From positions 31,466 to 95,465 of IMG/VR virus record IMGVR_UViG_3300032291_001492: DNA of 64,000 bases; one strand, written 5' to 3'. Shown here in pieces: positions 8,301 through 58,311 of the stretch (position 1 is its first letter; the number at the start of each line of letters is the position of its first letter). The stretch is from a virus. Made by a program: the position numbers and the translations under genes. The notes under the pieces are model-generated. The model saw nothing but the letters and a program-made list of their open reading frames with translations, ran no database searches and was not told the origin of the DNA.

Positions 8301-11300
8301 ATTTAATTACTGGTTTACGTCAATATCGTGTATCAGTCCGCGGAGCTATAACAGCAGACTGGAATGGTACAGTTGATGCGGCAGGCTTCATTTTAAATCA
8401 AGACAACATCCAAGAATGGAATAGAGAAATTAAATATACCAAGGGTGAAATTGTTCTTTATAAAAATAGGTATTGGACATCTTTAACTATTGTACAACCT
8501 AAAGTATTATTTGACGAACGTGATTGGAAAGAAACAAACTATAACGAAATTCAAAAAGGATTATTGCCTAACAGTCAAACTCGTTCTTTTGAAAGTACAT
8601 TATACTATAACACTGATTCTGCAAACTTAGAAAATGATGCAGATTTATTAAGTTTTAGTTTGATTGGATATCGTCCAAGAGATTACTTAGCACTTGCTGA
8701 TTTAACAGATATCACGCAAGTAAACGTGTACAAAAACATGATTAAAGAAAAAGGTACATTGAATGCAGCCAGTGCGTTCAAGGGTGCTAATTTACCACAA
8801 GGTGGAATTAATTATGACATTTATGAAAACTGGGCTATTAAATCAGGTGAGTTTGGTGGCGTATTAAACAACAACTTTATTGAATTTAACTTAAATCAAG
8901 CGTCATTGACAGGTAATCCAAGTATTGTTGGTTTAACTAATGGAATATTTACTGATGGAGTACAACAAGAAGTACCGTTGTATTCTATATTCAATTATGG
9001 TAGACCAATAACTAGCCCTAATATATTACCTACTATTTCAGCCTCTGAGCCTTCTTCATTATTCCCTACAGCAGGCTATGTCAATTACAATGACGTTAAA
9101 ATGTCAAGTTATTATTATTCTGGTTTAGCTACTGCAACTAATGCTAGTGGAACAATAGTACCTATCAATGAATTTTATGTACGTGATTATGTTTGGTTAG
9201 CAAATTATCTATCTGACTGGAGAGTGTATACACCAGTCAGTTTAGGTTCAATCATTAATGCCAAGAATAATTTGAATGGTACCGTGACTATTACATTTAG
9301 CCAGGCTCATAATTTAACAAGATTTGAGTTATTTGGTATAACAAACTTTGATGTAGCAATTAATAACTATTATCTAGTGGCAGCAGTTGTTGATCCGGTT
9401 AGAGTCATTATTAATCTTTCATTGAGTCCTAGCACACTTAATATTGTGGGTCAAGGTATTGGTTTAAGAATGCAAAGTCAACGTGTAGCAACTGCACCTG
9501 AAATTGTTGATTTACCATTATTAAATAATGAATTCACTAAATCAAAAGTTTGGGTTGATGAAAACAATGACGGCAGCTGGGCAGTATATCGTAAGAGTTT
9601 GAACTATCAGTATGATGCAGAAATCATTAGGGCTTCAAGCCAAACATTTGGTAGCGCAGTTGCATACACTACTCCTATGGGATACTTGATTGGTGATGCA
9701 GATGTTGGAGCAGTATACCGCTATACTTTTAATGCAGAAGCAAATACCTACACACTAGACCAAGCTATTACAAATAGCACTTCATTTGGTTCATATATAT
9801 CTTATGCTGATGATTTATTTGTAATTTCAGAACCAACAAGTGGTTCACCTAAAGTATATGTATATCAATTGATAACCACTACTCTAGTAGACAATCTGAA
9901 TTCTTATCAAACTATTTCTGCACCAGGCGGAGTAACTGACTGGGGTAGCACGACTGCTATTTCAGGTGATCAAAATTGGTTATACATCTCAGATACAGGT
10001 AATGCTAGAGTTTATGTATATCGCAAATCAACTCTTACCAACTTGTATGAAAGTGTAGGATATATTTCAGTAGCAGGTTTAACTTCTGCTGACAATTTTG
10101 GATTTTCGATTGCAACAGACTACTATGGTGATACTGTAGTAATTGGCGCGCCCGATCAAGACTATAATGTAAACACTGATAACTACGGATATGTGTACGT
10201 GTTTGCAAGAACAGTACAGAATTTTATAGCACCTTCTACCAGCCAATCATACATCCCGCAAACATTTGCATTGTCTTGGTCACCCGTCACAGTTACACAA
10301 ACTGCAACTGCTACAGATAGTACCAACGATAGAATCACGATAACAAGTTCTGCTGGTTTTAGTGTTAATGATCCTGTAGTATTCTCTGGTGATATTTTAT
10401 CTTCTGGTGCAATTTCTCAAAATACTGTGTATTATGTTTATGATAAACCAACAGCTACTACATTTAGAATTGCATCAACACGTAATGCAGCCGCACCAAT
10501 TGAATTAACTACAGCTTCAGGCCCACCAAACATGACTGTTACTGTACAAACAACACCGTTGTTTGTTAACATTAACGGAACATTGCTTGAAGATGATTCT
10601 TATGCAGTTATAGGGTCTACGTTATATGTTTACAGTGGATTAACCCCAACATTAAATGCAGGTGATATTCTTTCTGTTAGTGGATCAAATTTTGTATTGA
10701 CACAAACATTAGACAACGGTCAGACACCACGTGTGGGTGTGCAGTTTGGACAAAGCGTAGATACAAATACATACGCTAATGAAATTTTAGTAGGTGCACC
10801 GTTTGAATTAAGTGCTGACAATTATGAAGGTGCTGTACATAGATTTACTAATGGTGGTGAAAAATATGGTTTTATTATTGGTACTGCTAATTGTAATATC
10901 ACAACACCAAGAACAATTTTAATAAACGGATATCAAGTTATTTTACCAATAGGTAATGCAACAAATGCTTCAAACTTTATTAATGCAGCTAACATTCCCA
11001 ATGTAAGTGCTACTTCTATTGACGGTAAATTAGTCATTCAATTAGTTGACATTGCTATAGGATTTGCAGGTTCAAAACTTTCATTGACTGTGTTGAATTC
11101 AGCAACTCCTGCTGAAATGGGAATTAATATCTATACAGCAACACAAACTATTGCTTGCCCACACTTAACTGGACCTACACAATTTGGAAGTGTAATTAAA
11201 TTTAATGAGTTTGGTTCATTTATAGCTAGCGCCCCTACAGGAACTCGCTACTCAGCTACAACATTTGATTTTACAGATGATGAATTAGATAATGACACTG

Positions 11301-14300
11301 TATTTGATAACAATGCTACACAATGGATTGACACATTTACCAATGCTGGTGCAGTATATATGTTTGATTATATTTCTGCATATAATGAAAGTTTAAATAA
11401 TCCAGGTAAATTTGTATATGCTCAAAGTACAAATGCAGAAAATATTGATTACGGTTCGCAACCTTATTATGGTCAGGCATTAGATTTTAATGATAATAGA
11501 GTTACAGTAGGAACTCCTAATTTTAGACCAGGATATGATAATGGTCAAGTAGTAGCATATACTAGTACTAGTACCGAACAAGACTGGGCAGTCTATAGAA
11601 GTTCTGCACCTATCGTTGATATAAATGGTATTGCAAACATTCAGTTATTCAGCGGATCATCTAATACAACATTAGACAACTTAGATTACTTTGATCCATT
11701 ACAAGGAAAATTATTAGGGGCAATTAGAGAAAATATTGATGTTATTTCTAATTCAGATCCTGCGGCATATAACTCTCCTAATAGCATACAGCGTGGTTTA
11801 GTATGGGGAGCAGACAAAGTAGGTCAATTATGGTTTGATACATCAAACACAAGATTTGTTAATTATCATCAAAATGATATTGTTTATAACAGCGCATATT
11901 GGGGTAGAATTTTCTCAGGCAGTGACGTTGCGGTATATTCGTGGGTAGTAAGTAATGTTAGTCCACTCGACTATATTGGCCCAGGCATTCCGTATGATAT
12001 TGATACCTATACTGTTAACGGAGTAATCAATGCAGAAGGCACTATTGTTCCATTATATTATTTCTGGGTAAGAAATACAAATATTGTATTTGAAAAGACT
12101 GGAAAAACATTAGCTGATTCTACATTAGAGGCATACATATCTCAACCTCAAAACACCGGTATAAGTTATTTTGCACCATTACAACCTAACATTTTTGCTT
12201 TATACAATTCAGGTGATTATTTAAATGGTAATGATACTGTATTGCATATTGGTTATGCAACAGGAACTAACGATGATCCTATACACAATCAATATGAATT
12301 GATTCGTGCTGATTATGCAGATGATTTCTTGTCAGGTGTTCCGGGATCAGGTGCTGGATATCAAACACGTTCATCAACGGGTATAACAGAACCAATCTCA
12401 TTGTATAATAGAATGTTAGATAGTATGTGCGGCGTAGATAATGCCGGTGCAGTAGTACCTAACCCATTCTTACCAAGAGCAGTTCAAACCGGTGTTCTTG
12501 CAAGACCGAGACAAAGTTTCTTCTATGATAGATATGATGCATTAAAGAATTATTTACAATATGCCAATGAAGTATTAGCACAATTTCCTATAACAGAAAT
12601 AAGAAATCCTTCATTCTTAAATACTACTGGTGCTACGAACCCATCAACAGTAGACAATCCTGATTGGACAGGAAGTGTATTACCATTCTATGATACAACT
12701 AACTATTGGAGTTATATAAATTGGTGGGCGCCTGGTTATGATAATAATACAAAGTCTGCATTACAAGTTCCGATTTATGCTGATTTATCAACACTAACTG
12801 TTACACCTGGAACAATTGTTACTGTAGCAACAAATGGCAATGGAAATTCAGAAACATATATCTATAATGTAGATGGTTCTTGGACCCGAATTGGATTAAC
12901 AAACGGTACAATTGAATTTAGTAGTGCATTATGGGATTACTCTACTTATAGACTAGGATTTGGTGACAATTTCTTTGATACTACACCGTATGATAACTAC
13001 CCGTCAGAAGAAACTAGATATATTATTCGTTCTTTAAATGAAGAAATTTACAACAACGAATTGTTAATTTTCAGAAATAAAAGTTTAATTTTATTATTTG
13101 AATACATCCAGAGTGAAACATCTGAGAATCAAAATTATTTGCCTTGGTTAAATAAAACATCATTCTTAGATGTATCACACACTATCCGTGAACTACGTCC
13201 AATTGAAGTATTCCAATCAGACAACGAGTTATTCTTGGAAGGTTACATGAATGAAGTTAAACCATATCATGTAGTTATTAAAGAATTCTTATTCAAATAT
13301 ACCGGCACTGATGTATACGAAGGTGACATCACTGATTTTGATTTACCTGCACAGTACAACAGTTCAGTGCAACAGTTTATAACACCGGAATTAGTTTATT
13401 CTAATCCAAACGGTGATAATCAGTATTTACCAAATGATCCTATATGGCAAACTGCCCCTTACATTCAATGGTTTAATAATCACGGAGTAAGTATTGTTGG
13501 TGAAAATGATTATCCTATATCAGTTTTAACATCATACATTGCGACAAATTCAAACTCATGTTATGTTGACAACGTAACCGGATTCCCTGTTACTGGAACA
13601 ATTTTAATTGGCACTGAGTTGATTGGATATTCTAGTGTAAATCTATTAACTAACCAATTATTAGGATTAGCAAGAGGACTACAAAATACTGTAATACAAC
13701 AACACATTCCGGGAGAAACAATCTTTATTGATTTGCCTGCTGTATTAGTGTTGAATGCAGGTAGATTGTATGACAATCCTCCTAAAATTACTGCAATAAC
13801 TGATACTACTATATATCCTGAACCAACAGTACCCGCACAGTTTGAAGCTGTAATGGGCTTAGGTACTGTCATTGGTATAAATGTTATAAATCCTGGACAA
13901 GGATACGCAGTACTTCCTAAAATTGAAATTGATCCTGCTGTTGTTGTTGAAGTTAATAGTACTCAAGTAAATATTTCAAACAATACAATAGAACTTACTA
14001 TACCTACATTACAAACAGGAGATTTGATTGTATATCAGCCTGGTACAAACAGTACTGTAATAGGTGGATTAACTTCAGGACAAAAATATTATGTTAACTT
14101 GTTGGAAGTTTCTCCGGCTCCAATTATAGCACTTTACGCTAGTTATATTGATGCTGATAGAGATCATAACCGTGTAGTTTTAACTAGCACTGGTTCAGGA
14201 GTTCAAAAATTAAACTTAGGTGCAGTTGCGTCTTGTATAACTAGCTCTGTACCAGTGAGAGAAAATAGTATTAATCTACGATTTGACAGAACTTCATATA

Positions 14301-17300
14301 CTTCACAGGTAACTGAGTGGGCATCAGGTGATTTTTACGGTTCATTTTACGCAGGAACTTATTCAAATAGTGACCAAGTTTCATCTTCTTCAATAGCCTT
14401 GCAAAGCACTCAACCACCAATTGATACTATTTTGGCAAGTGCTCAGGGTGCAACATTTGAAATTTTAGATGCTACTAATGATCAAACATTAACATGGTCT
14501 TCACGTACAAGAGAAACAGTACAAACATACGGACCGGCTACTTTATATCCAAATGCTATAAGAATCAATCCATCAACAGGTGGCTCACCCGTTGCAGGAG
14601 AATTGGGTTCTACTGTAGGTTTCTATATAGGGATGCCAGTTAAATTCGTAGGTGCAACTGTAGGAAATTTAGTTAATGAAACTACTTACTATGTAAAATC
14701 TTTGGTAGATTTACCTAATCTAGTTACATCAAATCCGGAAGCTACTGGTTTTACTATATCAGCGACCGTAGATGAAGACGGTGTGCCAGGATCAACATTT
14801 GTTCTTTCAACTGCAACTGTTACGGCTGCTGGTTTACCGATGTTTGTAGGTGAAGTCACTAATACTGCTGTGCTAACTATTAATTATAGCGGCATTAGAA
14901 ACGCAACAGTTACTACATCAGGTACTAACACAATTACAGTATTGCTTACTGCTACTGGACAAAATGGCACTAATGGATTATATACAGGTATACCTGTATA
15001 CTTTACCGGAAATGTGTTTGGTGGAATTTCTGAGAACGAGATTTACTATGTAACTACTGTTACTGGTCCACAGACATTCACTATGTCTACTCAAACAAAT
15101 CCAACAACACTAACTATAACAGAAACAGATTCAGTTACTGATGCTATTACTTGTGACAGTACATTAACTCTTTCTCTTAATGAACCAATCGTGTTTACTG
15201 GAGATGTGTTTGGTAATATTGTTGAAGGTACACAATATTACATTAGAGAACTATTCTCAGGAAATATAACGTTCTCGATTTCTGAAACTATTAACGGACC
15301 TGTATTTGCACTTGCATCTGACACTGGTTCTTGCACAATGATAAGTCAAAAAGACACTGTAACATTACAAGATGATATTGGTTCTATGACAATGAATGTC
15401 AGCTTACCAGTAAGTCCAGGTCAAGTCAATGGACAACTATTTACATTATATCCTACTTCTCAGCAATATATCAATCAAACAGGTGTAGTTACTAACTTGA
15501 TAGAAAGAGACATTAATGCAACTCTTTCAACCGTAAACAGATTGTGCTTGTCAACTTTTACTGGCGGTATTTTAAATTTATATACTAACTTTGAGTTTGA
15601 TGTTGCAAGCAATATAGGCGGACTAACAACATCAGGTGGACCATACATTGTAACTGCTGTAGGAACAACAACTGTTAACGTGTCTAGCACTAGTGGGTCA
15701 GGCAATTGGTTAACTGTACCATTAGATACTAATCCATATACAACTGATGTGTTGTATTCTGGAATGCCAATAATATTCAGTGGGGTATCATTGGGAGGCG
15801 TATTATTAAATACAGTTTACTATGTAGATACTATTGACGCAAGCCCTCCAGTTGGCTCAGGAAGATTTACTATATCAGAAACTTCTGATTTGTCAAGTGG
15901 TATATTTGTAGTTACCAATGATAATGGTGACATGGTTGGTACAGGTGATCCATTCATTCAAGTAGCAGATACATTAAGTAATGCAACAGGTCCGGTGATG
16001 CTAACACAAACTGTTGGCACTACCCCAACATTCGATGTAAGTTATATTTTAGGCGGTTACCGAGTAACAATTCAAAATCCAGGTAGTGTATTTGCAATTG
16101 ACAACACTATAACTATTTTAGGAACTAATTTAGGTGGTACTACACCAGAAAATGATTTAGTGCTGACTGTTTCTTCAATTAATACTACTGGTGGAATAGT
16201 ATCTACTATATGTAACGGAACACCTGCAGGCACAACTGAACAATATTATTTTAAGGTTGTATCAGAAAATCAAGTAGAAGTTTACGAAAATGCAGCCTTA
16301 AGTGTTCCGGTAAGTGGACAAAATTTCCCTTATGTTGGAATCACTTCAACTACTGCTACGATAGCAACTGCTTCAAATGATAGATTTACAGTAACTAGTT
16401 CAGCCGACTTTAGTATAAATGATCCGGTTGTATTTACTGGAACAGTATTTGGTGGAGTTACATTAGGTCAAACATATTATATTAAATCTAAACCAACAGG
16501 CACTACTGTTACTATTACAGAAACTGTAGATGGTACCGTATTCAATATCACTACCAATGCTACAGGTTCAATGACAATGGCAAAATCAGGTGATTATGCA
16601 CTATTACCGGAGCCATTCTTCTTTAGTCCTAGTATCGTAAAATATAACAATCGTGTTTATCAATGTATCGTAAGTAACAATGATCCTGAATTTATTTTAG
16701 GTAAATGGGAACTATTAGATCCGGGTAATAGAAAACTTAACGGGTTAGATAGAGTTATTGCATATTACAGACCTACTGTAAATATGCCGGGTGTTGATTT
16801 AACTCAATTAGTTACCGGTATAACATATCCAAACAGTACATATTTGGGTAATGCATTTGCTCCGGATGACGAATTTACAGTAGATGTTAATTTAACAGAT
16901 CAACCATTTTACCCAACCGGAATTGATTTAAGCACTATTATTTGGAATGGTATAAGCTATCTTGCAGGATCGAATGCAGAAACATACTCATCTATTAATT
17001 TAAGTGAGACTGGTTCATCTTGGGTCATCAATAAAATTTCCAATCAACCAATTGGTATTACCGATTTGCTTTTTGCAGGAGGTAGTTATGTTCTAACTTC
17101 TAATAATCCAGCTACTCCTATACTAATAAGTGACAATGGATTTACTTGGATTAGTAACGGAACATTTACTCCGTTTGATTCAACACCTTATGATATAACA
17201 ACTTTTGATATATCTTCTGTAAATGTTCCTTCTCTGTTATTGAACGGAGTAGTTTACTATAACGGAATATACATTGCAGTGGGAAATAATATCATTTCAT

Positions 17301-20300
17301 CTACTGATTTGTATTCATGGGTTGAACGTTATGCATTCACAAGCACTACATTATCAAATGTATTAAACGATGTTGCTTATGTTAGCACTCCTGGATATAC
17401 TGGATTTGTCGCAGTTGGATTAGGACAACGTTTAATTAGTGGAACAGCAGTAAATGTTGCATTAATATTCACTAGTACGGACGGTTATAACTGGAATCAA
17501 GTATCGTTTACTGACACTGTATTCTCATTAAATGCGATTGCATCAAACAGCGGTAGCATTGTTGCAGTTGGTAATAATGGTATTATCTATGTTAGTTTCA
17601 ATACTGTTAACTGGTTTGCACAAACATCACCGGTATCAGAAAACTTAAACAATATTATTTGGGATAGTTATAATAATCAATTTGTTGCAGTAGGTGATAA
17701 CGGAACTATATTGACCGGTGATGCTAATGGCAACGCATGGACAGCACGAACATCTGGCACAACAGAAGATATACAAAGTGTTGTTTGGAATAATGATGAT
17801 GGCATTTATATTGCTGTTGGATTGAACAATACAATTTTACAAAGTGCTGATGCTATAACATGGATCTCAATTGCTACATTTGAAGTATTACCGTCAGTCT
17901 ATGATATTCAAGGTGATGCGTTTACTGCAGGTTATGGTCCGGAAGAAATGGTTCCTGGGGTAGTATCTGATACTATTACTATGACTGTTGCGACCCGTCC
18001 AGGAACTAACTGGGATGAAACTGTTTATCAACATGTTGGATATAATGTAGTATCTATTGAATTATCACCAATTAATGCATTACAAACAGAGTACAGTTTT
18101 GTAAATATAACCTCTACTCCTGCACAATTAAGTGTGTTTATCATTGACTATACAACAGAATTAAGCACAACAATTTATCAAGGTATTGATTATACAATAG
18201 ATTGGATCAACAAAGTTGTGACTTTGACAAATCCATTAAGTTTTGTTACAGAAGGTACATCAGATAGATTACGTATTGATGTATATGAAGTTGGTAATGG
18301 TGATCAGTTAGTAAAAGCAAATACAGAAACTGATCCTATTAGATTAAACACCACTACTGGATTTCAAGAAATATATGTAAATGCTAATTATAGTGCAGAC
18401 ATTTATCAAGGTTCAGGTATTATTAGACCTAATACTAATCCACTAGAAGCAATTGCGATTGCAACGGATGAAACAACAGATGCAATTACTTGTGAAAGTG
18501 TTGAGAATTTTGTATTGAACGGCACAATTACTTTTAGCGGAGCAGTGTTTGGTGGAATAGTAGAAGACCAAGTTTATTATGTAAAATCTATTAGTTATAT
18601 ATCAAACAGAATTACTATTTCTGAAATATTTAATACAGGTTCAGGCACTGCAGGAGCAACGTTCCCGTTGACTACTGCAACCGGGTTAATGACTGCAATT
18701 ATTCAAGTTGGTACCGGTACAGTATGGACACCTCCTAGCGTGTTCCACAATGGTACTAAACTAGTATTGGGTCATACTGCAAATATAACTAGAACTAAAT
18801 CAGGAACCAATACTATAACTACGAATACTACCGGTGACTTAGTTCCTAATCTATCTATTAAGTTTAGTTCAACTATGTTTGGTGGAGTAATCGTACCGTT
18901 ACAAACATATTACATTAAAACAATTTATGATGGAAATGAATTTACAATTTCAGAAACACCAGGTGGCGCAGAATTAGAATTGACCAACGCTACGGGTGGT
19001 GCAATTTTCATATCAGGTGATTATGCGATTGGTATTGCAGATAATGGCATTTCTGCTGCGGTGTTGTTGGCAAATGAATATGATGCATTAACAGACTATA
19101 TCACTTATACTTTCTTTGGACAAACATTACCTGTACAATATGGTTACACACTTCCGGAAGTGCAACTATTTGAAGGTGATGGATCAACTGCATCATTTAC
19201 ATTAACTAATTATGTGGGTGATAGTAATGTTACAAGTGCAATTGTCGAAATTGATGGTATAAGACAAACTATTTCTGCCTATAATATAAGTGCAATCTCT
19301 AACACTATATTGTTCAACACACCTCCGGCAAACGGATCAACTATAGCGGTTACTTCATATAATTTGACAGACCGTCAATATTTTAATACACAATACGGCA
19401 TTACAGGTTCTTCTGGTGCAACTACAACTACTATTGTAGTTAGTGACACAACCCATAGCGTGGGCACGTTTGACCAAGATACTCCAACTATTGAAACATT
19501 TGACCAAGATACTCCTAGTGTAGTTTTATATGACCAAGAATTAGATTGGCTAACACTGGGTTCAGGCTCAACAAGCAGTTTATCAATTAATTTCCCAATT
19601 GTATTCCAAGCACCAACTCTAGGTGGGTTAATTGCTGGACAAATCTATTATGTAGTAGAAATATTAAATTCAACTGATTTTGTTGTATCTACTCAAGTAG
19701 ACGGAACACCCACAACAGTTACTACTGATAGTGGTTCAATGAATGGTGTGGTTAATGGATTAACAGTTGCTAATATAATTAATATTAATAATGCTATTTC
19801 TAGTCCTTTGACAACTGTATTAGTTACTGGAACTACAGGTGGTGCATCAGATTATGTAGTGTGTGGTTCTACAACTGGACTAATCGTAGATCAACCAATT
19901 ATATTTAAAGCCGCAATAACTACTGCTGGCTCATTTGTTGTAGGTAAAACTTATAAAATTACTACACTAACAGGTACTTCACAAGTGCAGTGGAATACTA
20001 CTGCTGGAACTTCAGGAGTAACATATGTAGTGGGTGATATATTCACAGCCGCAACAGTTGGTGCTGGTACTGGTCAGGCGTTATTAACTGATTTGGGTGG
20101 AATTAATACATTGGGTGAAGTATATTTTGTTCGTTCTGTTGCAAGTGGAACTGAATTTACAATTAAAGATCAGTATGGAACATTAGTTAATCTAACTACT
20201 GCTAGCGGTAGTTTAGTAGGATTTATGGGTGGTCTATCTGCAATTAGTGTAACAACTGGCATAGATCATAATCTATCGGAAAATGAAATAGTTCGTATTG

Positions 20301-21730
20301 ATGGCACATTAGGTTCAGTACAACTTAATAACAATACATACTATACTAAAATAATAACTGACACTGAATTCTTGTTATACGATCAGCCATATAATCCAGC
20401 ATTGAATGCAGTTAATTACCCAGTTACATTCTCATCAACTTATATATCAGGCGGTTACGTTTGGTTAGATGGATTATTTACTGTATCATGTACTAATACA
20501 ATTCGTACATCTTCAAATGGAAATAGAATTACAGTAGATAGCACTGAGTCATTAATTCCTAATACTCCTGTATACTTTACATCAATAGGTGAAAGTCAAG
20601 GTACTAACATATTAGGAAATATCTTAGCAAAGACTGAATATTATGTTTTAGCGGTAAGACCTGAAGTAACTGCTGGTAATTTTATTGTAGGCAATGAATA
20701 TGAGATTGTAGATTTAGGAAATACTAATTGGAATACTTGTGCCGGAACAGTTAGCGTAACTTATGCAATCGGAGATACTTTTGTTGCAGCCGCAACTGAT
20801 CCAGGAACTACTGGTATTGCAACTGGTCTACAAGAGTTTACTATTACTGAAAACAGATTCCCTGATGAAGCTGAAGTTGTATTAACTAATGCTACTGGTA
20901 GTGTTGATGTATCACAATTCCAGCAAGTTAATGTTGATAGATTGTGGGTAACAATAAATGGATACAGAATCCCTTCTTCATTATTGAGAATTAATGAATA
21001 TAATAATTTAAGTATTTTATCAACTGTTACTACCGGTGATGAAGTTATCATTACAAGTATGATGCCAACAGCAACACCTAATGAAAATGTATATTTGTTA
21101 AATGTAACTACAACAAATCAACCTACAGTTTATAGAGCAAACACTCAAACTAGAACTTGGTTAACTCAACCATTGAGTTTCACGGATGAAGTTATTTACT
21201 TAAATGATGCTACTAGGGTTACTGATTCTATAGTACAAGAAGTAATTGCGCCCGCACCAGTTGACGGTAAATATAATATTGGATTAGAAGCTAATAAAAA
21301 TGTAATATGTCACGTGACCGTGTACAACAATACAACTTCAACTTTAGTAGATCCTGCTAATTTTGCAATTATTATCGTTAATTTGGCTCCAATATTACAA
21401 ATTTCAGATGAAGTAAACACTGGAGATTCGTTGACAATAACTACACTTGAGGGAAGATTGTTGTTTGTTAATGGAGAACAGATTGCGTTTGCTGAATGTG
21501 ACATTATAAATAATACAGTCAGTGGATTAACTAGAGGGGCAAATGGTACAGGGGAACAAACTTTTATTCCGTTATATTCTGAAGTATTTGGTATTATTCC
21601 TAATAACAGAATGACTAATGTAACCTACGGGGCTGTGTGGAATTCTTACATTTATAATTCCGTAGACGGGGATCCATTGCAAATTAGTCAGACTATAGGT
21701 GCAAATTTCTTAAAAGTGGATAGAAGTTAA
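2339..21730 (+). CDS. Giant modular baseplate/tail structural protein, 6463 aa
   Basis: One uninterrupted frame of 19.4 kb. The N-terminus (LNFLPEIFKTQTN...GSRFGYG) is of a kind I associate with large structural proteins of marine T4-like phages. Its position after gp6 suggests a gp7-like wedge role, which is inference. Residues about 2430-3080 hold seven FG-GAP-like blades (FGSAVAY, FGSYISY, WGSTTAI, FGFSIAT, FGQSVDT, FGSVIKF, YGQALDF), with an unrelated insert after the fourth. Residues about 4865-5180 hold a second propeller of the YCF48/BNR kind (repeated 'VAVGxNGTI' and 'STDGYNWNQ'). About a dozen modules of the form 'PVVFTGxVFGGVxxGxxYYIKxI..TISET' lie mainly at residues 4080-4750 and 5380-6190. 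No signal peptide or enzyme motif was seen. Confidence 0.8.
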   Translation: MATRIRTLNFLPEIFKTQTNAQFLAATLDQLVAQPNTKKIQGYVGSRFGYGVNATDYYVTEPTKVRTDYQLDPGVVFLKENDTTANDFISYPGIVDGIKLEGGLTQDNNRLFNSQFYSWDSFTNLDKIINFNEYYWLPDGPDRVIISTDVVFNSSNYLVQSLSNEYLISSESQSATSNPTLTLLRGGSYTFSVNQNTQFWIQGEPGVTGYSPTQPNVQTRDVFGVTNNGAENGVITFEVPAQNALNEYNFPPGPAVGVVSSLPFSQINGARVTEIGGIDGVTALDGLTVMFYNTGIADEIGYIQKFYDQTLFDEDGGVPYNEATDYPGTSEFYNNYEGGFYSPVNSNFYTITLLGDQSNPIIQLTPAGIIPTNQTITPTFGSEWVNRNFYRSVDGAIALVPYNSAILDTLYYQDGTNPNKVGIIRLANSNVSNSLDVVTEILGKPQYTAPNGVVFTNGLKILFQGNVTPEIYNNTEFYVEGVGTAIELIPVADLVSPGAFAEGSYIPFDTTPYDVGNFDSSLYLLIDPDYITIARNAINRNAWSRSNRWFHIDVINATADYNNNPELASVATIYNKASRPIIEFYPNLSLFDSGVIGKQPIDFIDFRTTDAFTLVAGQPTYYPDVAGYTGYSATIAPVLAAVTSKTATQTVGLVNQVILSPDTAGIYVNDTIVFGLVTAGGFVPGTTYKIVTPGNTDFTAIGASSNAVGTVFVATGAGSGTGTAGDVDSEFGGLIAGVTYYITEIFGNRITISTEKQGTSVILSSVAGSMSTSIYPYSTTITVATDEVFGLFEVNQYIADSTGILPAVTFINAITEVGSNTILTVSWYNQEVITGTSVASIVSADTTLSNYALFDGARVVFAADTNLSVRNKIYISRFSSIDGTGTPVITLSEAFDGQVLPDEQTSVYRGYNYKGKDFYFNVENWQQAQQKITINQAPKFDIYDENGISFGDSTVYIGTSFTGCSLFQYGLGTGISDPVLGFPLRYSTVNNIGDVSFDVTLDSQTFNYVQGTNPITQKVNTGYVYNYTSRTSFVRQLGWQTAVSPSVQYQIFEFNWSIDNPITNFVCDIAPVSSSSTNWPTVQVYINNTYLPDTDFTVSTTDNTTTVTISQIDAVNTVVQVLILSDQVSSTAYYQIPINLSNNPFNEDVTTVNIGDIRGQYQSMFFNNPNTLGPVFGRNNFRDLGNLVPWGNRIIQNSASLVLPGTFLRKQNHNLFNSILYNSRQYITFKNLLIDTVNNTDYNRMLSPAEMLDDAMDQITSTKTDSQPFFWSDMLPSKAPYISNTYSFANTLDVSIYPLSRIYDFDKANYYGVLVYLIRDSITSQLISGVDYTVSTSAPSLTVTLDLLSNDQIVINEYNQTYGSYVPNTPTKLGLYPSTIPAVVVDTAYFEPTYFIVGHDGSYNKLFGSYDSTTGQLEDFRDQVLLEYETRIYNNLKLSNVIPIQTYEVIPGFFRDLQYSYDEFLEVYSESFLDWVGQNRVDYKRQFYNPVNEFSYNYRNSGNKINREAIQQGYFRGLYLYYYDTTTPNVTPWQMIGYADQPTWWTERYGPAPYTSDNLILWNDLAEGIDWNNGNPVVITEYIRPELLQVLPVDSNGDLVSPLTSIVGNYNNNIFKRDWKVGDVGPTEFSYRRSSTWPFDLMRLYALAKPANFFNLAVDVDNYKYSAEFDQYLVNNRSHLQLGDIPIYGLGTPATSYINWIVDFEKQVGIDATTDITTLLKNLDVRLVYRVAGFSDKNLLKFYVEKSSANTTNSSLLIPDESYSVLLYDNQPFDRIVYSGVVIQITENGYQVYGNSQTNAYFKILLPKNSGYSETIEVENLSVRIADQYTDKVGIIPYGTEFYSVQEVAQFLSSYGKYLENQGMKFDQIENGIPVNWAQMIAEFLYWSQIGWEIGSITTINPSASTLVIDKDSSVVQPLTVRQRNFVLNQNLFPIQSIDLNVVRQDTAFTAQPLNQGDAISYGQFNISNFEHGIVFDNVTLFNDIIYNLITGLRQYRVSVRGAITADWNGTVDAAGFILNQDNIQEWNREIKYTKGEIVLYKNRYWTSLTIVQPKVLFDERDWKETNYNEIQKGLLPNSQTRSFESTLYYNTDSANLENDADLLSFSLIGYRPRDYLALADLTDITQVNVYKNMIKEKGTLNAASAFKGANLPQGGINYDIYENWAIKSGEFGGVLNNNFIEFNLNQASLTGNPSIVGLTNGIFTDGVQQEVPLYSIFNYGRPITSPNILPTISASEPSSLFPTAGYVNYNDVKMSSYYYSGLATATNASGTIVPINEFYVRDYVWLANYLSDWRVYTPVSLGSIINAKNNLNGTVTITFSQAHNLTRFELFGITNFDVAINNYYLVAAVVDPVRVIINLSLSPSTLNIVGQGIGLRMQSQRVATAPEIVDLPLLNNEFTKSKVWVDENNDGSWAVYRKSLNYQYDAEIIRASSQTFGSAVAYTTPMGYLIGDADVGAVYRYTFNAEANTYTLDQAITNSTSFGSYISYADDLFVISEPTSGSPKVYVYQLITTTLVDNLNSYQTISAPGGVTDWGSTTAISGDQNWLYISDTGNARVYVYRKSTLTNLYESVGYISVAGLTSADNFGFSIATDYYGDTVVIGAPDQDYNVNTDNYGYVYVFARTVQNFIAPSTSQSYIPQTFALSWSPVTVTQTATATDSTNDRITITSSAGFSVNDPVVFSGDILSSGAISQNTVYYVYDKPTATTFRIASTRNAAAPIELTTASGPPNMTVTVQTTPLFVNINGTLLEDDSYAVIGSTLYVYSGLTPTLNAGDILSVSGSNFVLTQTLDNGQTPRVGVQFGQSVDTNTYANEILVGAPFELSADNYEGAVHRFTNGGEKYGFIIGTANCNITTPRTILINGYQVILPIGNATNASNFINAANIPNVSATSIDGKLVIQLVDIAIGFAGSKLSLTVLNSATPAEMGINIYTATQTIACPHLTGPTQFGSVIKFNEFGSFIASAPTGTRYSATTFDFTDDELDNDTVFDNNATQWIDTFTNAGAVYMFDYISAYNESLNNPGKFVYAQSTNAENIDYGSQPYYGQALDFNDNRVTVGTPNFRPGYDNGQVVAYTSTSTEQDWAVYRSSAPIVDINGIANIQLFSGSSNTTLDNLDYFDPLQGKLLGAIRENIDVISNSDPAAYNSPNSIQRGLVWGADKVGQLWFDTSNTRFVNYHQNDIVYNSAYWGRIFSGSDVAVYSWVVSNVSPLDYIGPGIPYDIDTYTVNGVINAEGTIVPLYYFWVRNTNIVFEKTGKTLADSTLEAYISQPQNTGISYFAPLQPNIFALYNSGDYLNGNDTVLHIGYATGTNDDPIHNQYELIRADYADDFLSGVPGSGAGYQTRSSTGITEPISLYNRMLDSMCGVDNAGAVVPNPFLPRAVQTGVLARPRQSFFYDRYDALKNYLQYANEVLAQFPITEIRNPSFLNTTGATNPSTVDNPDWTGSVLPFYDTTNYWSYINWWAPGYDNNTKSALQVPIYADLSTLTVTPGTIVTVATNGNGNSETYIYNVDGSWTRIGLTNGTIEFSSALWDYSTYRLGFGDNFFDTTPYDNYPSEETRYIIRSLNEEIYNNELLIFRNKSLILLFEYIQSETSENQNYLPWLNKTSFLDVSHTIRELRPIEVFQSDNELFLEGYMNEVKPYHVVIKEFLFKYTGTDVYEGDITDFDLPAQYNSSVQQFITPELVYSNPNGDNQYLPNDPIWQTAPYIQWFNNHGVSIVGENDYPISVLTSYIATNSNSCYVDNVTGFPVTGTILIGTELIGYSSVNLLTNQLLGLARGLQNTVIQQHIPGETIFIDLPAVLVLNAGRLYDNPPKITAITDTTIYPEPTVPAQFEAVMGLGTVIGINVINPGQGYAVLPKIEIDPAVVVEVNSTQVNISNNTIELTIPTLQTGDLIVYQPGTNSTVIGGLTSGQKYYVNLLEVSPAPIIALYASYIDADRDHNRVVLTSTGSGVQKLNLGAVASCITSSVPVRENSINLRFDRTSYTSQVTEWASGDFYGSFYAGTYSNSDQVSSSSIALQSTQPPIDTILASAQGATFEILDATNDQTLTWSSRTRETVQTYGPATLYPNAIRINPSTGGSPVAGELGSTVGFYIGMPVKFVGATVGNLVNETTYYVKSLVDLPNLVTSNPEATGFTISATVDEDGVPGSTFVLSTATVTAAGLPMFVGEVTNTAVLTINYSGIRNATVTTSGTNTITVLLTATGQNGTNGLYTGIPVYFTGNVFGGISENEIYYVTTVTGPQTFTMSTQTNPTTLTITETDSVTDAITCDSTLTLSLNEPIVFTGDVFGNIVEGTQYYIRELFSGNITFSISETINGPVFALASDTGSCTMISQKDTVTLQDDIGSMTMNVSLPVSPGQVNGQLFTLYPTSQQYINQTGVVTNLIERDINATLSTVNRLCLSTFTGGILNLYTNFEFDVASNIGGLTTSGGPYIVTAVGTTTVNVSSTSGSGNWLTVPLDTNPYTTDVLYSGMPIIFSGVSLGGVLLNTVYYVDTIDASPPVGSGRFTISETSDLSSGIFVVTNDNGDMVGTGDPFIQVADTLSNATGPVMLTQTVGTTPTFDVSYILGGYRVTIQNPGSVFAIDNTITILGTNLGGTTPENDLVLTVSSINTTGGIVSTICNGTPAGTTEQYYFKVVSENQVEVYENAALSVPVSGQNFPYVGITSTTATIATASNDRFTVTSSADFSINDPVVFTGTVFGGVTLGQTYYIKSKPTGTTVTITETVDGTVFNITTNATGSMTMAKSGDYALLPEPFFFSPSIVKYNNRVYQCIVSNNDPEFILGKWELLDPGNRKLNGLDRVIAYYRPTVNMPGVDLTQLVTGITYPNSTYLGNAFAPDDEFTVDVNLTDQPFYPTGIDLSTIIWNGISYLAGSNAETYSSINLSETGSSWVINKISNQPIGITDLLFAGGSYVLTSNNPATPILISDNGFTWISNGTFTPFDSTPYDITTFDISSVNVPSLLLNGVVYYNGIYIAVGNNIISSTDLYSWVERYAFTSTTLSNVLNDVAYVSTPGYTGFVAVGLGQRLISGTAVNVALIFTSTDGYNWNQVSFTDTVFSLNAIASNSGSIVAVGNNGIIYVSFNTVNWFAQTSPVSENLNNIIWDSYNNQFVAVGDNGTILTGDANGNAWTARTSGTTEDIQSVVWNNDDGIYIAVGLNNTILQSADAITWISIATFEVLPSVYDIQGDAFTAGYGPEEMVPGVVSDTITMTVATRPGTNWDETVYQHVGYNVVSIELSPINALQTEYSFVNITSTPAQLSVFIIDYTTELSTTIYQGIDYTIDWINKVVTLTNPLSFVTEGTSDRLRIDVYEVGNGDQLVKANTETDPIRLNTTTGFQEIYVNANYSADIYQGSGIIRPNTNPLEAIAIATDETTDAITCESVENFVLNGTITFSGAVFGGIVEDQVYYVKSISYISNRITISEIFNTGSGTAGATFPLTTATGLMTAIIQVGTGTVWTPPSVFHNGTKLVLGHTANITRTKSGTNTITTNTTGDLVPNLSIKFSSTMFGGVIVPLQTYYIKTIYDGNEFTISETPGGAELELTNATGGAIFISGDYAIGIADNGISAAVLLANEYDALTDYITYTFFGQTLPVQYGYTLPEVQLFEGDGSTASFTLTNYVGDSNVTSAIVEIDGIRQTISAYNISAISNTILFNTPPANGSTIAVTSYNLTDRQYFNTQYGITGSSGATTTTIVVSDTTHSVGTFDQDTPTIETFDQDTPSVVLYDQELDWLTLGSGSTSSLSINFPIVFQAPTLGGLIAGQIYYVVEILNSTDFVVSTQVDGTPTTVTTDSGSMNGVVNGLTVANIININNAISSPLTTVLVTGTTGGASDYVVCGSTTGLIVDQPIIFKAAITTAGSFVVGKTYKITTLTGTSQVQWNTTAGTSGVTYVVGDIFTAATVGAGTGQALLTDLGGINTLGEVYFVRSVASGTEFTIKDQYGTLVNLTTASGSLVGFMGGLSAISVTTGIDHNLSENEIVRIDGTLGSVQLNNNTYYTKIITDTEFLLYDQPYNPALNAVNYPVTFSSTYISGGYVWLDGLFTVSCTNTIRTSSNGNRITVDSTESLIPNTPVYFTSIGESQGTNILGNILAKTEYYVLAVRPEVTAGNFIVGNEYEIVDLGNTNWNTCAGTVSVTYAIGDTFVAAATDPGTTGIATGLQEFTITENRFPDEAEVVLTNATGSVDVSQFQQVNVDRLWVTINGYRIPSSLLRINEYNNLSILSTVTTGDEVIITSMMPTATPNENVYLLNVTTTNQPTVYRANTQTRTWLTQPLSFTDEVIYLNDATRVTDSIVQEVIAPAPVDGKYNIGLEANKNVICHVTVYNNTTSTLVDPANFAIIIVNLAPILQISDEVNTGDSLTITTLEGRLLFVNGEQIAFAECDIINNTVSGLTRGANGTGEQTFIPLYSEVFGIIPNNRMTNVTYGAVWNSYIYNSVDGDPLQISQTIGANFLKVDRS
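19465..19545 (+). repeat. Three-copy 30-bp tandem repeat inside the giant gene
   Basis: The sequence tgaccaagat recurs at 19471, 19501 and 19531, exactly 30 bp apart. It encodes three successive ten-residue units of the type TFDQDTPxxx, the last one degenerate (LYDQELDW). The third unit has drifted and the reading frame is kept. Confidence 0.85.
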
Positions 21731-54278: not shown

Positions 54279-54440
54279 ATGGGCAATCAATTAAAAACAC
54301 TGCAAGAAAATCTAGCCAAAGACTTAGTTAGTTTGGAAGATAATGAATTAGTGACAGAACAACAGTTGGACAAAATTACTGACGTATATAGTCAAGTGTA
54401 TGATATTATTACCAACGGTATTGATAAACCCAAAGAATAA
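54279..54440 (+). CDS. Small helical protein, 53 aa
   Basis: The frame encodes 53 residues predicted as two amphipathic helices (LKTLQENLAKDLVSLEDNEL and QLDKITDVYSQVYDIITNGI), with no cysteine, signal peptide or membrane segment. The acidic, heptad-like leucine pattern suggests a coiled coil. It is preceded at 4 nt by a late-type octamer and followed by the Pho box of the lipid-remodelling genes. It is a plausible real gene because it fills the gap exactly. Function unknown. Confidence 0.55.
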   Translation: MGNQLKTLQENLAKDLVSLEDNELVTEQQLDKITDVYSQVYDIITNGIDKPKE

Positions 54441-54489: not shown

Positions 54490-55371
54490 ATGAAGACTTA
54501 CCGCTCTATCTTTATTAGTGATGTGCATCTCGGAACTAAAGACAGCCAAGCAGGAAAACTAAACAACTTTCTCAAACACAACACCTGCGATACACTTTAT
54601 CTTGTGGGTGACATTATAGATGCATGGCGAATACAACAAAACAAATGGCGTTGGAAACAAAGTCATACTAATGTAGTCCGACGTATACTAGGTCATGCCA
54701 AGCGAGGTACTAGAGTGATTTATGTTGCAGGCAATCACGATGAATTCTTAAGACCTATGATACCTTATGGATTTAGTTTTGGACTAATAGAGATACACAA
54801 TCAAATAGAACACATAGGTGCTGATGGCAAACACTATCTAGTAACGCACGGCGATTTGTTTGACGGCATTACCCGTTTAGCACCTTGGTTAGGTTTCTTG
54901 GGTGACAAAGCCTATGACTTTATATTATATCTTAATAGCAAGTTTAATTGGGTTCGTCATAAAATGGGATTTGGCTATTGGTCATTAAGCAAATATCTTA
55001 AATACAAAGTAAAAAAAGCAGTGGACTTTATATTTCAGTTTGAACGTAATTTAGCAGACTATTGTAAGAAGCGTGGGTTTGATGGTGTTATATGTGGACA
55101 TATACATCATGCTGAGATAAAAGAAATCAACGGCGTCATGTATATGAATGATGGTGATTGGGTTGAATCATGTACGGCATTAATAGAACATCATTCAGGT
55201 ACATGGGAAATTGTAACTTGGACTAAGGAGAAGGATGATGTGGGTATTGATACTAATAGCGGTACACATGAACGATCCAACAGACCAGCCCGGGAGAGTG
55301 GAGCTACAGTTCGCGGATCAAACAACTTGTCTGCAAGTACTAAGCACCCTCAAGTGGCAACTGAAATTTAA
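54490..55371 (+). CDS. plcP: PlcP-type phospholipase C (calcineurin-like metallophosphoesterase), 293 aa
   Basis: All metallophosphoesterase motifs are present: D11-x-H13 (SDVHLG), GD with D41, GNHDE with N82-H83-D84, THGD near residue 122 and GHIHH near 200. The stretches 'FNWVRHKMGFGYWSLSKYLK' and 'MNDGDWVESCTALIEHH' match what I recall of PlcP of Sinorhizobium and marine bacteria, more than LpxH. PlcP cleaves phosphatidylglycerol or phosphatidylethanolamine under phosphate starvation, releasing phosphate and leaving diacylglycerol. The glycosyltransferase that follows can use that diacylglycerol. The last 45 residues (after KEKD) are low in structure and overlap another frame (55235-55411). 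Confidence 0.85.
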   Translation: MKTYRSIFISDVHLGTKDSQAGKLNNFLKHNTCDTLYLVGDIIDAWRIQQNKWRWKQSHTNVVRRILGHAKRGTRVIYVAGNHDEFLRPMIPYGFSFGLIEIHNQIEHIGADGKHYLVTHGDLFDGITRLAPWLGFLGDKAYDFILYLNSKFNWVRHKMGFGYWSLSKYLKYKVKKAVDFIFQFERNLADYCKKRGFDGVICGHIHHAEIKEINGVMYMNDGDWVESCTALIEHHSGTWEIVTWTKEKDDVGIDTNSGTHERSNRPARESGATVRGSNNLSASTKHPQVATEI

Positions 55372-55411
55372 AAGTTTTAAGGTGGTAGGAGAATGCAAAA
55401 AACAATTCTGA
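55235..55411 (+). CDS. Small membrane-anchored two-cysteine protein nested across plcP/agt, 58 aa
   Basis: In the +1-shifted frame, a double ATG follows a strong aaggagaagg ribosome site (55225-55234). The product starts with a hydrophobic anchor (MMWVLILIAV) and has a C-terminal part with two cysteines 22 positions apart (TTCLQVL...VVGEC). It overlaps the plcP 3' end for 137 nt and the agt start for 19 nt. The plcP extension beyond the family's usual end begins where this frame begins, as expected for overprinting. The 57267-57446 protein has the same anchor and the same C-x3-L-...-G-x-C spacing. Confidence 0.55.
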   Translation: MMWVLILIAVHMNDPTDQPGRVELQFADQTTCLQVLSTLKWQLKFKSFKVVGECKKQF

Positions 55412-56797: not shown

Positions 56798-57151
56798 ATG
56801 CGTATCATAGAAATCCTTACCGAATCACATCATAACTTTACCACTGCTTATCACATTACTACTGTTGAAAATGCAGACAACATCACATATGGTGGATTGG
56901 ATCCATATGATGGCAATGCCTATCTAATAGTAGATACCGGTAATAAAGAAAAACTTAGTAATGATTTCAGAACTGTTGCCGGTTGGATGCTGGCTAAAAC
57001 TGAACGCACAGAAGAACCACTGACTTTACTAAAAGTAAATATAACAGGAATCCCATTAGAAAAAGATAGTGGTTGGTATGTATCCAAGGCACCTATTCCA
57101 GCTGATCGTATCACTGATATGGGTGAAGATGCATTCAATAGCGTAGCATAA
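56798..57151 (+). CDS. Uncharacterised protein, 117 aa, possible ART-fold internal protein
   Basis: The protein opens with MRIIEILTES. The first nine residues look like a T4-type capsid-targeting leader (compare T4 Alt, MELITELFDE, from memory), with a possible (L)-T-E cleavage point. This is followed by 'AYHITTVENADNITYGGLDPYDGNAYLIVD', which resembles the 'H.T...NA..I...GL.P......L' segment of ADP-ribosyltransferase-like folds. The usual catalytic Glu is not identifiable, so enzyme activity is not claimed. No ribosome site; starts 4 nt after a late-type octamer. Confidence 0.5.
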   Translation: MRIIEILTESHHNFTTAYHITTVENADNITYGGLDPYDGNAYLIVDTGNKEKLSNDFRTVAGWMLAKTERTEEPLTLLKVNITGIPLEKDSGWYVSKAPIPADRITDMGEDAFNSVA

Positions 57152-57155
57152 TTAC

Positions 57156-57184
57156 TTGACAATTACTTTGAATAAATATATACT
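57156..57184 (+). promoter_or_regulatory. Strong sigma-70 promoter of the tmRNA gene
   Basis: TTGACA (57156-57161), a 17-bp spacer, then TATACT (57179-57184). The expected start is near 57191. An AATAAATA late-type octamer (57171-57178) lies inside the spacer, so early and late recognition may coincide. Confidence 0.8.
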
Positions 57185-57190
57185 GTAAGT

Positions 57191-57255
57191 TATTGCTGTA
57201 TGAAGCAAAGAGAAAAGTGTTCTGGACGGGGGTGCGAATCCCCCCAGGTCCACCA
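57191..57255 (+). ncRNA. ssrA: tmRNA acceptor piece (5' half of permuted gene)
   Basis: The 3' end carries a T-arm with stem GGGGG (57228-57232), loop TGCGAAT and CCCCC (57240-57244), the acceptor strand CAGGTCC (57245-57251), then ACCA with the CCA encoded. CAGGTCC pairs over 7 bp with GGGCCTG at 57459-57465 of the second piece, including the G3-U70 wobble that marks alanine acceptors. The order (acceptor piece first, coding piece second) is that of circularly permuted two-piece tmRNA genes. The 5' boundary is inferred from the promoter. Confidence 0.85.
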
Positions 57256-57266
57256 TAAGGAAAACT

Positions 57267-57446
57267 ATGAACACAACATTTGTGTGGGTGTTGACGTTTA
57301 CTGTTTTGGGAGTAAATCCTGAGCATAAGGCGTTTCCCAAATATCCATCCAAACAAGAGTGTGAGCAAGCGTTAGTGCAGACAAGAGCAGAGTACAAGGC
57401 AAAGAACAAGCATATAGCTGGCGCCTGTACACTGATTATAAAATAG
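57267..57446 (+). CDS. Small two-cysteine protein inside the tmRNA intervening segment, 59 aa
   Basis: An ATG at 57267 follows an aagga site (57257-57261) right after the encoded CCA. It encodes a hydrophobic N-terminus (MNTTFVWVLTFTVLGV) and a C-terminal part with two cysteines 22 positions apart (KQECEQAL...IAGACTLI). It stops 12 nt before the coding piece starts. The anchor 'WVL', C-x3-L, the K at +12 and +14 and G-x-C at +20/+22 all line up with the 55235-55411 protein, so this is probably a real relative. It looks like a secreted or membrane-tethered, disulfide-capable protein. Confidence 0.65.
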   Translation: MNTTFVWVLTFTVLGVNPEHKAFPKYPSKQECEQALVQTRAEYKAKNKHIAGACTLIIK

Positions 57447-57458
57447 TATCCTTATGAT

Positions 57459-57620
57459 GGGCCTGCATAGTTTCGACAGGGCAACAAGTAAATGAGTGGA
57501 CAGCACGGTAGGCGATGACCGTAAATCAAGCAAAAAAAGTAAACGCAAACGACTCACAGTTTAGCATTGCAGCCTGATTCAGGCAGCTAGGGTAAGACAT
57601 ACCTCGTAACAGAAACTCAG
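57459..57620 (+). ncRNA. ssrA: tmRNA coding piece with tag ANDSQFSIAA
   Basis: The piece starts GGGCCTGCATAGTTTCGACA, matching the tmRNA 5' consensus with its TTCGAC. The resume codon GCA at 57545 opens a tag frame to TGA at 57575-57577, reading ANDSQFSIAA. Trans-translation by tmRNA-SmpB rescues stalled ribosomes and marks the products for proteolysis. The tag ends in SIAA rather than the common LAA. No SmpB gene is visible in the window, so the host protein would be used. The 3' end is near the following hairpin and was not fixed. Confidence 0.9.
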
Positions 57621-57646
57621 AATAGGCTCTTCGGGGCCTATTTTCC
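57621..57646 (+). terminator. Terminator of the tmRNA gene
   Basis: AATAGGCTC (57621-57629), loop TTCG, GGGCCTATT (57634-57642), one G-U pair, followed by a short T run. The UUCG tetraloop makes it very stable. It could also protect the 3' end of the coding piece. Confidence 0.8.
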
Positions 57647-57703
57647 CGTTAAGAATGCATATTTATTGAGTAAAGAGTAAAATTATTGGTAGATATTTAT
57701 ATT

Positions 57704-57711
57704 AATAAATA
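57704..57711 (+). promoter_or_regulatory. Late-type promoter octamer AATAAATA
   Basis: AATAAATA lies in the 120-bp gap after the tmRNA terminator, upstream of the outer-membrane protein gene. Confidence 0.45.
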
Positions 57712-57720
57712 TTATTCTAG

Positions 57721-57733
57721 CCTGTAAAACAGG
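57721..57733 (+). promoter_or_regulatory. 5' leader hairpin of the outer-membrane protein gene
   Basis: CCTGT-AAA-ACAGG is a perfect 5-bp inverted repeat 10-18 nt after the octamer. It would sit at the 5' end of the transcript and may stabilise it. A further AT palindrome (tttaaatttaaa) follows, then aaggaaa as the ribosome site. Confidence 0.4.
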
Positions 57734-57765
57734 TTTAAATTTAAATCATAAAGGAAATATTTAAA

Positions 57766-58311
57766 ATGAAGAAAATTACAATCGCATCTCTATTTGCATT
57801 TTTAGCAATCAGCGCATCAGCCGCAGACTTTGTTACTGTTGACGTTGACTCAGTTAAAAACAACGTAAGTGGTGTTCAAAGCACCGCACAATATGTTCGT
57901 GCAGGTAAAGATATCGGCGGAATTCAATTTGGGCTACAAAGCCGCACCGCAGTTTCACATACAGGTGGTATGTTGAATAGTTTAGAACTTACCGGTGGTA
58001 AAGCTATTGGCGTTATTACACCCTTCGTTGGTGTAGGTTTTGATAATGGATTGAATGGTGCACGTGGTGCTGACTATCAATATGGACTATTAGGTGCAAC
58101 AACTGGTATGAAAGTTGGTCCTGGTTTTGCTCTAGTAGGTGTTAAAACACGTTTAGGAACAACAGCCGCAGTTGAAACAAAGCAAACTATCGCTTTTGGT
58201 ACATACAGTATTCCTGTTGCAAAGAATGTTGCATTGAATATTAACGCAAGCAAAAGCTATCAAGACATTCAAGAGAATGCTTATGGTTTAGGTTTAGGTT
58301 TTAGATTCTAA
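57766..58311 (+). CDS. Secreted small outer-membrane beta-barrel protein, 181 aa
   Basis: MKKITIASLFAFLAISASA followed by ADF is a clear Sec signal peptide with a cleavage site after residue 19. The mature 162 residues alternate polar and hydrophobic positions in about eight strands (VITPFVGVGFDN, YQYGLLGATTGMKVG, FALVGVKTRLG, QTIAFGTYSIPV). The protein ends with the terminal-Phe signal YGLGLGFRF used by the Bam machinery. It matches OmpW/Opa-size eight-strand barrels, but I cannot name a family. A phage-borne outer-membrane protein could block superinfection or change the envelope. It has its own promoter, leader hairpin and terminator. Confidence 0.75.
   Translation: MKKITIASLFAFLAISASAADFVTVDVDSVKNNVSGVQSTAQYVRAGKDIGGIQFGLQSRTAVSHTGGMLNSLELTGGKAIGVITPFVGVGFDNGLNGARGADYQYGLLGATTGMKVGPGFALVGVKTRLGTTAAVETKQTIAFGTYSIPVAKNVALNINASKSYQDIQENAYGLGLGFRF

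Follow-up and report, generated by a model that had tools for sequence, protein, structure and literature searches.

The permuted tmRNA locus

The window analysed here is a stretch of 64,000 nucleotides (nt; positions 31,466 to 95,465) from the 95,465-base virus record IMGVR_UViG_3300032291_001492, and the subject of this report is a permuted transfer-messenger RNA (tmRNA) gene in which a 59-codon open reading frame (ORF), the cargo, occupies the segment between the two tmRNA pieces. ARAGORN detects a permuted tmRNA at 57163-57668, whose tag, ANDSQFSIAA, ends in a degron-like AA, and Rfam scores the site at 124.5 bits for RF04321 (tmRNA_permuted) and 110.6 bits for RF01850 (beta_tmRNA); together, the two programs indicate a permuted tmRNA of the betaproteobacterial type at approximately 57142-57668. 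The locus has the order of RF04321, with the acceptor piece before the coding piece, complementary acceptor strands and an encoded CCA. Its features are listed below.

57156..57184, + strand: sigma-70-type promoter of the tmRNA gene, TTGACA-17-TATACT (11/12 match), directly upstream of the tmRNA
57194..57255, + strand: tmRNA acceptor (5') piece, with T-arm, acceptor-stem 3' strand CAGGTCC and encoded CCA at 57253-57255
57256..57458, + strand: intervening segment, 203 nt, expected to be excised from the precursor
57257..57261, + strand: Shine-Dalgarno (SD) sequence AAGGA, within the 5' strand of the closing helix
57254..57268, + strand: 5' strand of the closing helix (CAUAAGGA..ACUAU), extending into the start codon; predicted partner 57443-57456, in a register that matches the relatives
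57267..57446, + strand: cargo gene, 59 codons, ATG...TAG; predicted beta-beta-alpha-beta mini-protein with Cys32 and Cys54 and a weak likeness to phrog_1092 and DUF1482
57443..57456, + strand: 3' strand of the closing helix (AUAGU.UCCUUAUG), overlapping the stop codon and pairing with the SD sequence
57459..57646, + strand: tmRNA coding (3') piece, with acceptor 5' strand GGGCCTG including G3-U70, TTTCGACAGGG and the terminal hairpin
57545-57577, + strand: tag reading frame ANDSQFSIAA, in the tmRNA coding piece

A preliminary description of the window had placed the ORF 11 nt past the CCA, which ends at 57255, and 12 nt short of the coding piece, in which GGGCCTG starts at 57459; these positions and the segment length of 203 nt are exact, and the AAGGA site is present as TAAGGA. 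The promoter site is also found in two further loci (L002 and L003). All other promoter-like sites within 56800-58100 match at 9/12 and none lies on the + strand between the tmRNA promoter and the ORF, so that the cargo ORF probably depends on the tmRNA transcript; the same scan found no separate strong promoter inside the intervening segment. No group I intron is present in the window around the ORF at Rfam gathering scores, and the ORF sits between the tmRNA pieces rather than in the T-loop.

A gene under codon-level selection

Cargo orthologs of equal length, in frame and at the same place, are found in two independent tmRNA loci, L253 (with identical DNA in L283) and L284; the tmRNA of L284 differs in its T-arm. 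The ratio of nonsynonymous to synonymous substitution rates (dN/dS) of the window gene against these orthologs is 0.25 and 0.27, and 0/4000 neutral simulations match the first value. Two other loci, L285 and L017, carry free-standing copies as an ordinary gene; the intervening segment of L017 itself is 70 nt long with no ORF of note. Dinucleotide shuffling of the window segment yields an SD-led spanning ORF with P = 0.0007, or 0.017 when the first 16 nt are kept. A search for related loci with the 59-residue ORF alone gave no confirmed relative, and relatives were found later with a two-sequence alignment; tblastn and blastn against the phage collection returned chance matches or none. The preliminary description had proposed a protein-coding gene and had named loss of codon conservation or frame breaks in relatives as what would speak against it; with codon-level conservation seen in the relatives, a dN/dS of about 0.25 and no frame breaks, the proposal survives. 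Comparison of sequences thus lends good support to the conclusion that the 59-codon ORF is a gene under codon-level selection.

Coding segments in related loci

Loci were collected by three IMG/VR pattern scans and as relatives of the window, and all counts are lower bounds. At least 255 loci have both tmRNA halves, with at least 192 unique segments of 24-531 nt, and the alanine identity pair G3-U70 is present in 255/255, the window included. The window segment had been described as much longer than usual; it is so by comparison with bacterial permuted tmRNAs (3-35 nt in ten retrieved with a single T-arm pattern), though not by the standard of this phage group. Frequencies refer to an unselected set from the two scans that used tmRNA letters alone, the third having been chosen for AAGG...ATG and left out. 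In this set, an SD-led ORF spans 33/130 unique segments, against about 1.6 in shuffled sequences over all length bins. Such ORFs occur in 0/61 segments below 80 nt, in 14/38 at 80-110 nt (0.42 expected from shuffling) and in 19/31 above 110 nt (0.05 expected), so that 33/69 are observed in the two longer classes where about 0.5 would be expected.

The cargo from all scans comprises at least 88 distinct products in about 46 similarity groups. It includes a thioredoxin (L223; Pfam 75.4 bits against a cut-off of 23.5; 4e-21), a CxxCxxCC protein (L014; 29.4 bits, cut-off 23; 1.3e-6), a PGDYG protein (L207; 27.8 bits, cut-off 27), an HNH homing endonuclease (L204; phrog_655, 2.6e-15) and a phrog_13558 protein (L120), while many products are peptides of 22-41 residues resembling single membrane spans. 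dN/dS in 13 cargo-gene pairs lies between 0.08 and 0.45, with related sequences not independent and two of the shortest pairs individually non-significant, and length differences within the codon-aligned families are all in frame. ARAGORN reports no tmRNA at four loci with long coding segments (L014, L204, L223 and L274); Rfam recovers whole permuted tmRNAs surrounding the thioredoxin and CxxCxxCC genes.

Other segment contents were also seen. Four segments (L162, L256, L277 and L279) hold two small ORFs in tandem, and one (L151:171-244, - strand) holds a complete tRNA-Arg (CCG) gene (Rfam tRNA, 44.4 bits). Non-coding segments of 116-237 nt with strongly pairing ends, in which Rfam finds the tmRNA alone, occur in L026, L007, L112, L113 and L164, and those of L048, L074, L040, L009 and L175 contain T-arm-like GGTTCGATTCC motifs, perhaps tRNA remnants.

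The closing helix and the Shine-Dalgarno sequence

Comparison of the loci shows that the ends of the segment, whether coding or not, pair in a single fixed register, base i with base -(4+i), and that in coding versions the SD sequence makes up the 5' strand of this helix. Neighbouring registers have no excess of pairing. In coding segments 93% of the cells are paired against 79% with shuffled partners, and in non-coding segments 95% against 62%, the related sequences not being independent. This helix continues the acceptor stem past the CCA. The start codon of coding segments lies 8-14 nt past the CCA, and AAGG is present in 26/41 coding and 2/71 non-coding segments of the unselected set. The 3' strand encodes the last codons or the stop, which explains why unrelated cargo proteins share endings (...VSL, ...VLL, ...FL); in 60/122 coding loci the stop is a UGA one nucleotide ahead of the acceptor.

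Because one strand of this extension of the acceptor stem is the SD sequence, ribosome binding and precursor folding would compete for the same RNA. In 89 complete coding precursors the SD guanines have a mean predicted probability of 0.91 of being paired to the 3' strand and of 0.04 of being unpaired; when the last 18 nt of the segment are removed, mimicking an unfinished transcript, the predicted unpaired probability is 0.44.

Exchange of cargo

The window and L003 are 86% identical in the DNA of the upstream gene, 97% in the promoter and 5' piece and 86% in the 3' piece, yet their cargo genes are unrelated and have 59 and 122 codons. In at least 148 locus pairs, many of them not independent, exon identity is 93% or more and segment identity stays below 60%. 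Free-standing cargo genes, or relatives of them, also occur in other phages, often close to the tmRNA: the L216 cargo matches free-standing genes of L002 and L003 by tblastn and, by eye, the window ORF 54279-54440. A tree of the exons requires at least 47 changes in the presence of the ORF (58-78 after shuffling) and 23 in cargo group, for which the minimum is 9 and shuffling gives 24-30; as the tree, built on approximately 325 columns, is poorly resolved, it is taken as support for exchange only. The best explanation of these comparisons would be that the intervening segment is an exchangeable slot for small, unrelated protein genes. Additional tmRNA pieces were seen in two loci: L001:5385-6950 contains a decayed 5' piece, an HNH endonuclease-like gene near 5995 and a second, complete permuted tmRNA at 6617-6950, and L008 contains an extra 5' piece.

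Proposed mechanism and alternatives

Permuted tmRNAs are processed by RNase P and 3' trimming. On the evidence above, the segment is probably a gene slot whose cargo is translated from the tmRNA precursor before folding and processing. We infer a switch between translation and maturation, in which ribosomes would load before the helix closes and closure would commit the transcript to tmRNA. While the transcript is still growing, the SD sequence would be free and ribosomes could translate the cargo; once the 3' strand had been transcribed the helix would close and cargo translation would stop, after which RNase P and 3'-end trimming would release the two mature tmRNA pieces and the segment would be discarded. 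Each transcript would thus serve as mRNA first and as tmRNA precursor second. The cargo may be swapped by recombination through the conserved flanking tmRNA exons, perhaps at times with the help of HNH homing endonucleases. About half of the coding loci have their stop codon 1 nt away from the site where RNase P is expected to cut, and processing could therefore leave a nearly stopless cargo message to be rescued by the same tmRNA. The coupling of tmRNA maturation to cargo expression that the preliminary description put forward is borne out in the anatomy only, the SD sequence being one strand of a covarying helix that extends the acceptor stem. That the closing helix acts generally in phages as a timed translation switch of an exchangeable slot, tying synthesis of small proteins, often membrane or redox proteins, to a ribosome-rescue RNA, is a possible but more doubtful extension.

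The main rival, which we regard as unlikely though of real weight, is that compact phages put small genes into any tolerated gap, the segment being tolerated because a two-piece tmRNA needs no covalent link; the cargo would then be translated and the helix would serve processing alone, with no regulatory link. The great diversity of the cargo, the tRNA gene in one segment and the free-standing occurrence of the same small-gene families in other phages fit this explanation, and several points concerning the helix weigh against a switch. It is equally well kept in non-coding segments and is therefore most likely there for processing, so that the SD sequence may merely borrow it; the predicted helix strengths overlap (means of -8.6 kcal/mol in coding and -11.4 kcal/mol in non-coding segments); and the folding values are thermodynamic predictions that include neither ribosomes nor proteins, the fold of the unfinished transcript being itself a model. 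Two observations speak against simple gap filling: in coding segments the helix contains the SD sequence at a set position, with the start 8-14 nt past the CCA, and G-U wobbles at the two SD positions of the helix (given G) make up 63/105 of the coding against 24/76 of the non-coding cases, uncorrected for related sequences, as if pairing were tuned to admit ribosomes. An origin as a slot for mobile cassettes, in which HNH homing endonucleases aimed at the tmRNA exons would drive insertion and the small cargo would consist of passengers or remnants, appears improbable: an HNH gene does lie inside the L204 segment, and the L001 order of decayed 5' piece, HNH gene and complete tmRNA would suit such insertion, but the endonuclease is one of about 46 cargo groups and most segments have no trace of one.

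Two further explanations can hardly be maintained. An untranslated chance frame would agree with the shortness of the ORF and with a product of no clear family (phrog_1092, E = 0.0035; DUF1482, E = 0.021), but it was rejected on codon selection (dN/dS 0.25, matched in none of the neutral simulations), on equal-length orthologs in three tmRNA loci together with two free-standing copies, and on the shuffle test; the unmistakable protein domains in other segments speak against it as well. That the halves are chimeric or decaying, leaving the ORF outside any working tmRNA gene, would be in keeping with the origin of all coding examples in metagenome-assembled viral contigs. Such an assembly artefact or dead tmRNA was also rejected, since the arrangement is repeated in contigs of many separate datasets, some of them identical, since G3-U70 is universal among the loci and since the thioredoxin and CxxCxxCC genes are enclosed by whole permuted tmRNAs according to Rfam.

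The encoded protein

The 59-residue cargo of the window is probably a small soluble domain: its AlphaFold2 model has a beta-beta-alpha-beta arrangement (mean predicted local distance difference test score of 86.5). It had been described as a small hydrophobic protein with two cysteines; Cys32 and Cys54 are present, whereas a membrane peptide is not indicated, the hydrophobic N-terminus forming a strand of the predicted fold. The match to phrog_1092 is weak, covers residues 1-36 and is shared by 3/5 orthologs, and the DUF1482 match is likewise weak (15.2 bits against a Pfam cut-off of 25). The nearest viral fold models are small uncharacterised phage proteins, with Foldseek E values of only 0.07-0.4, a likeness that agrees with these two family matches; a fold search of the PDB with the model gave nothing significant. 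A 58-codon ORF at 55235-55411 (+ strand), overlapping the gene at 54490-55371, is a possible paralog (BLASTP, 21% identity, E = 0.001 in a single comparison). Elsewhere in the window, 2339-21730 (+ strand) is a single ORF of 6463 codons.

Relation to known systems

Like the window locus, other permuted tmRNAs (RF04321/RF01850) have the acceptor piece before the coding piece, an encoded CCA and a segment that is removed from the precursor, and are recognised by Rfam and ARAGORN; unlike it, those of bacteria have short segments. The window match is 384 nt long, whereas high-scoring Burkholderiales tmRNA matches cover 205-240 nt. A pattern of T-arm, CCA and NAAGG...ATG had no match in 84,980 bacterial and archaeal genomes, so that the arrangement in this form seems to be specific to phages, as far as a single pattern can tell.

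The available part of the 2025 tmRNA database paper (PMC11915505) counts 11,946 permuted sequences and just 79 phage tmRNAs of any form; of the intervening segments that it reports on, one harbours a tRNA-Ala gene and another a repetitive element, with no mention there of a protein gene. In the part available of a paper on methylophages (PMC9004378), 50/53 permuted phage tmRNAs are marine or aquatic, and segment genes are not mentioned. Group I introns with homing endonuclease genes in the tmRNA T-loop, as the same part of the database paper describes them (PMC11915505), resemble the window in having a protein gene inside a tmRNA precursor; there, however, the gene encodes a homing endonuclease within a self-splicing intron, whereas in the window there is no intron, the gene lies between the pieces and the cargo of the slot is varied. 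In the td intron of T4, the ribosome-binding site of I-TevI is sequestered, and the intron splices less well when I-TevI translation is freed (PMC3014915, PMC2988022). I-TevI is a tested precedent for the principle of a conflict between translation and RNA maturation; unlike it, the window locus has no ribozyme or splicing, its helix is a closing stem beside the acceptor, slot cargo is varied and no separate strong promoter was found in the segment. Small genes between the tRNA genes of phage tRNA arrays are similar in being small and diverse genes among processed RNAs, and the same families are free-standing near these tmRNAs; in contrast to them, the window gene splits two parts of one mature RNA and supplies both strands of the closing helix. 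No earlier description of protein genes in a tmRNA intervening segment was found in the literature, subscription papers and supplements lying outside the search.

Implications

Introns offer known examples of genes nested inside an excised RNA; to our knowledge, no such gene has been known in a tmRNA intervening segment, nor a closing helix that serves as a ribosome-binding site. The intervening segment of tmRNA, an RNA that nearly all bacteria possess, has so far been regarded as waste. The presence there of dozens of unrelated, selected protein genes, a thioredoxin among them, shows that exchangeable protein genes can be housed in the gene of a structural RNA with no intron involved. A small RNA thereby offers a direct test of the conflict between the roles of messenger and structural RNA, and many very short phage proteins, of a kind that gene finders are likely to overlook, are added to those known.
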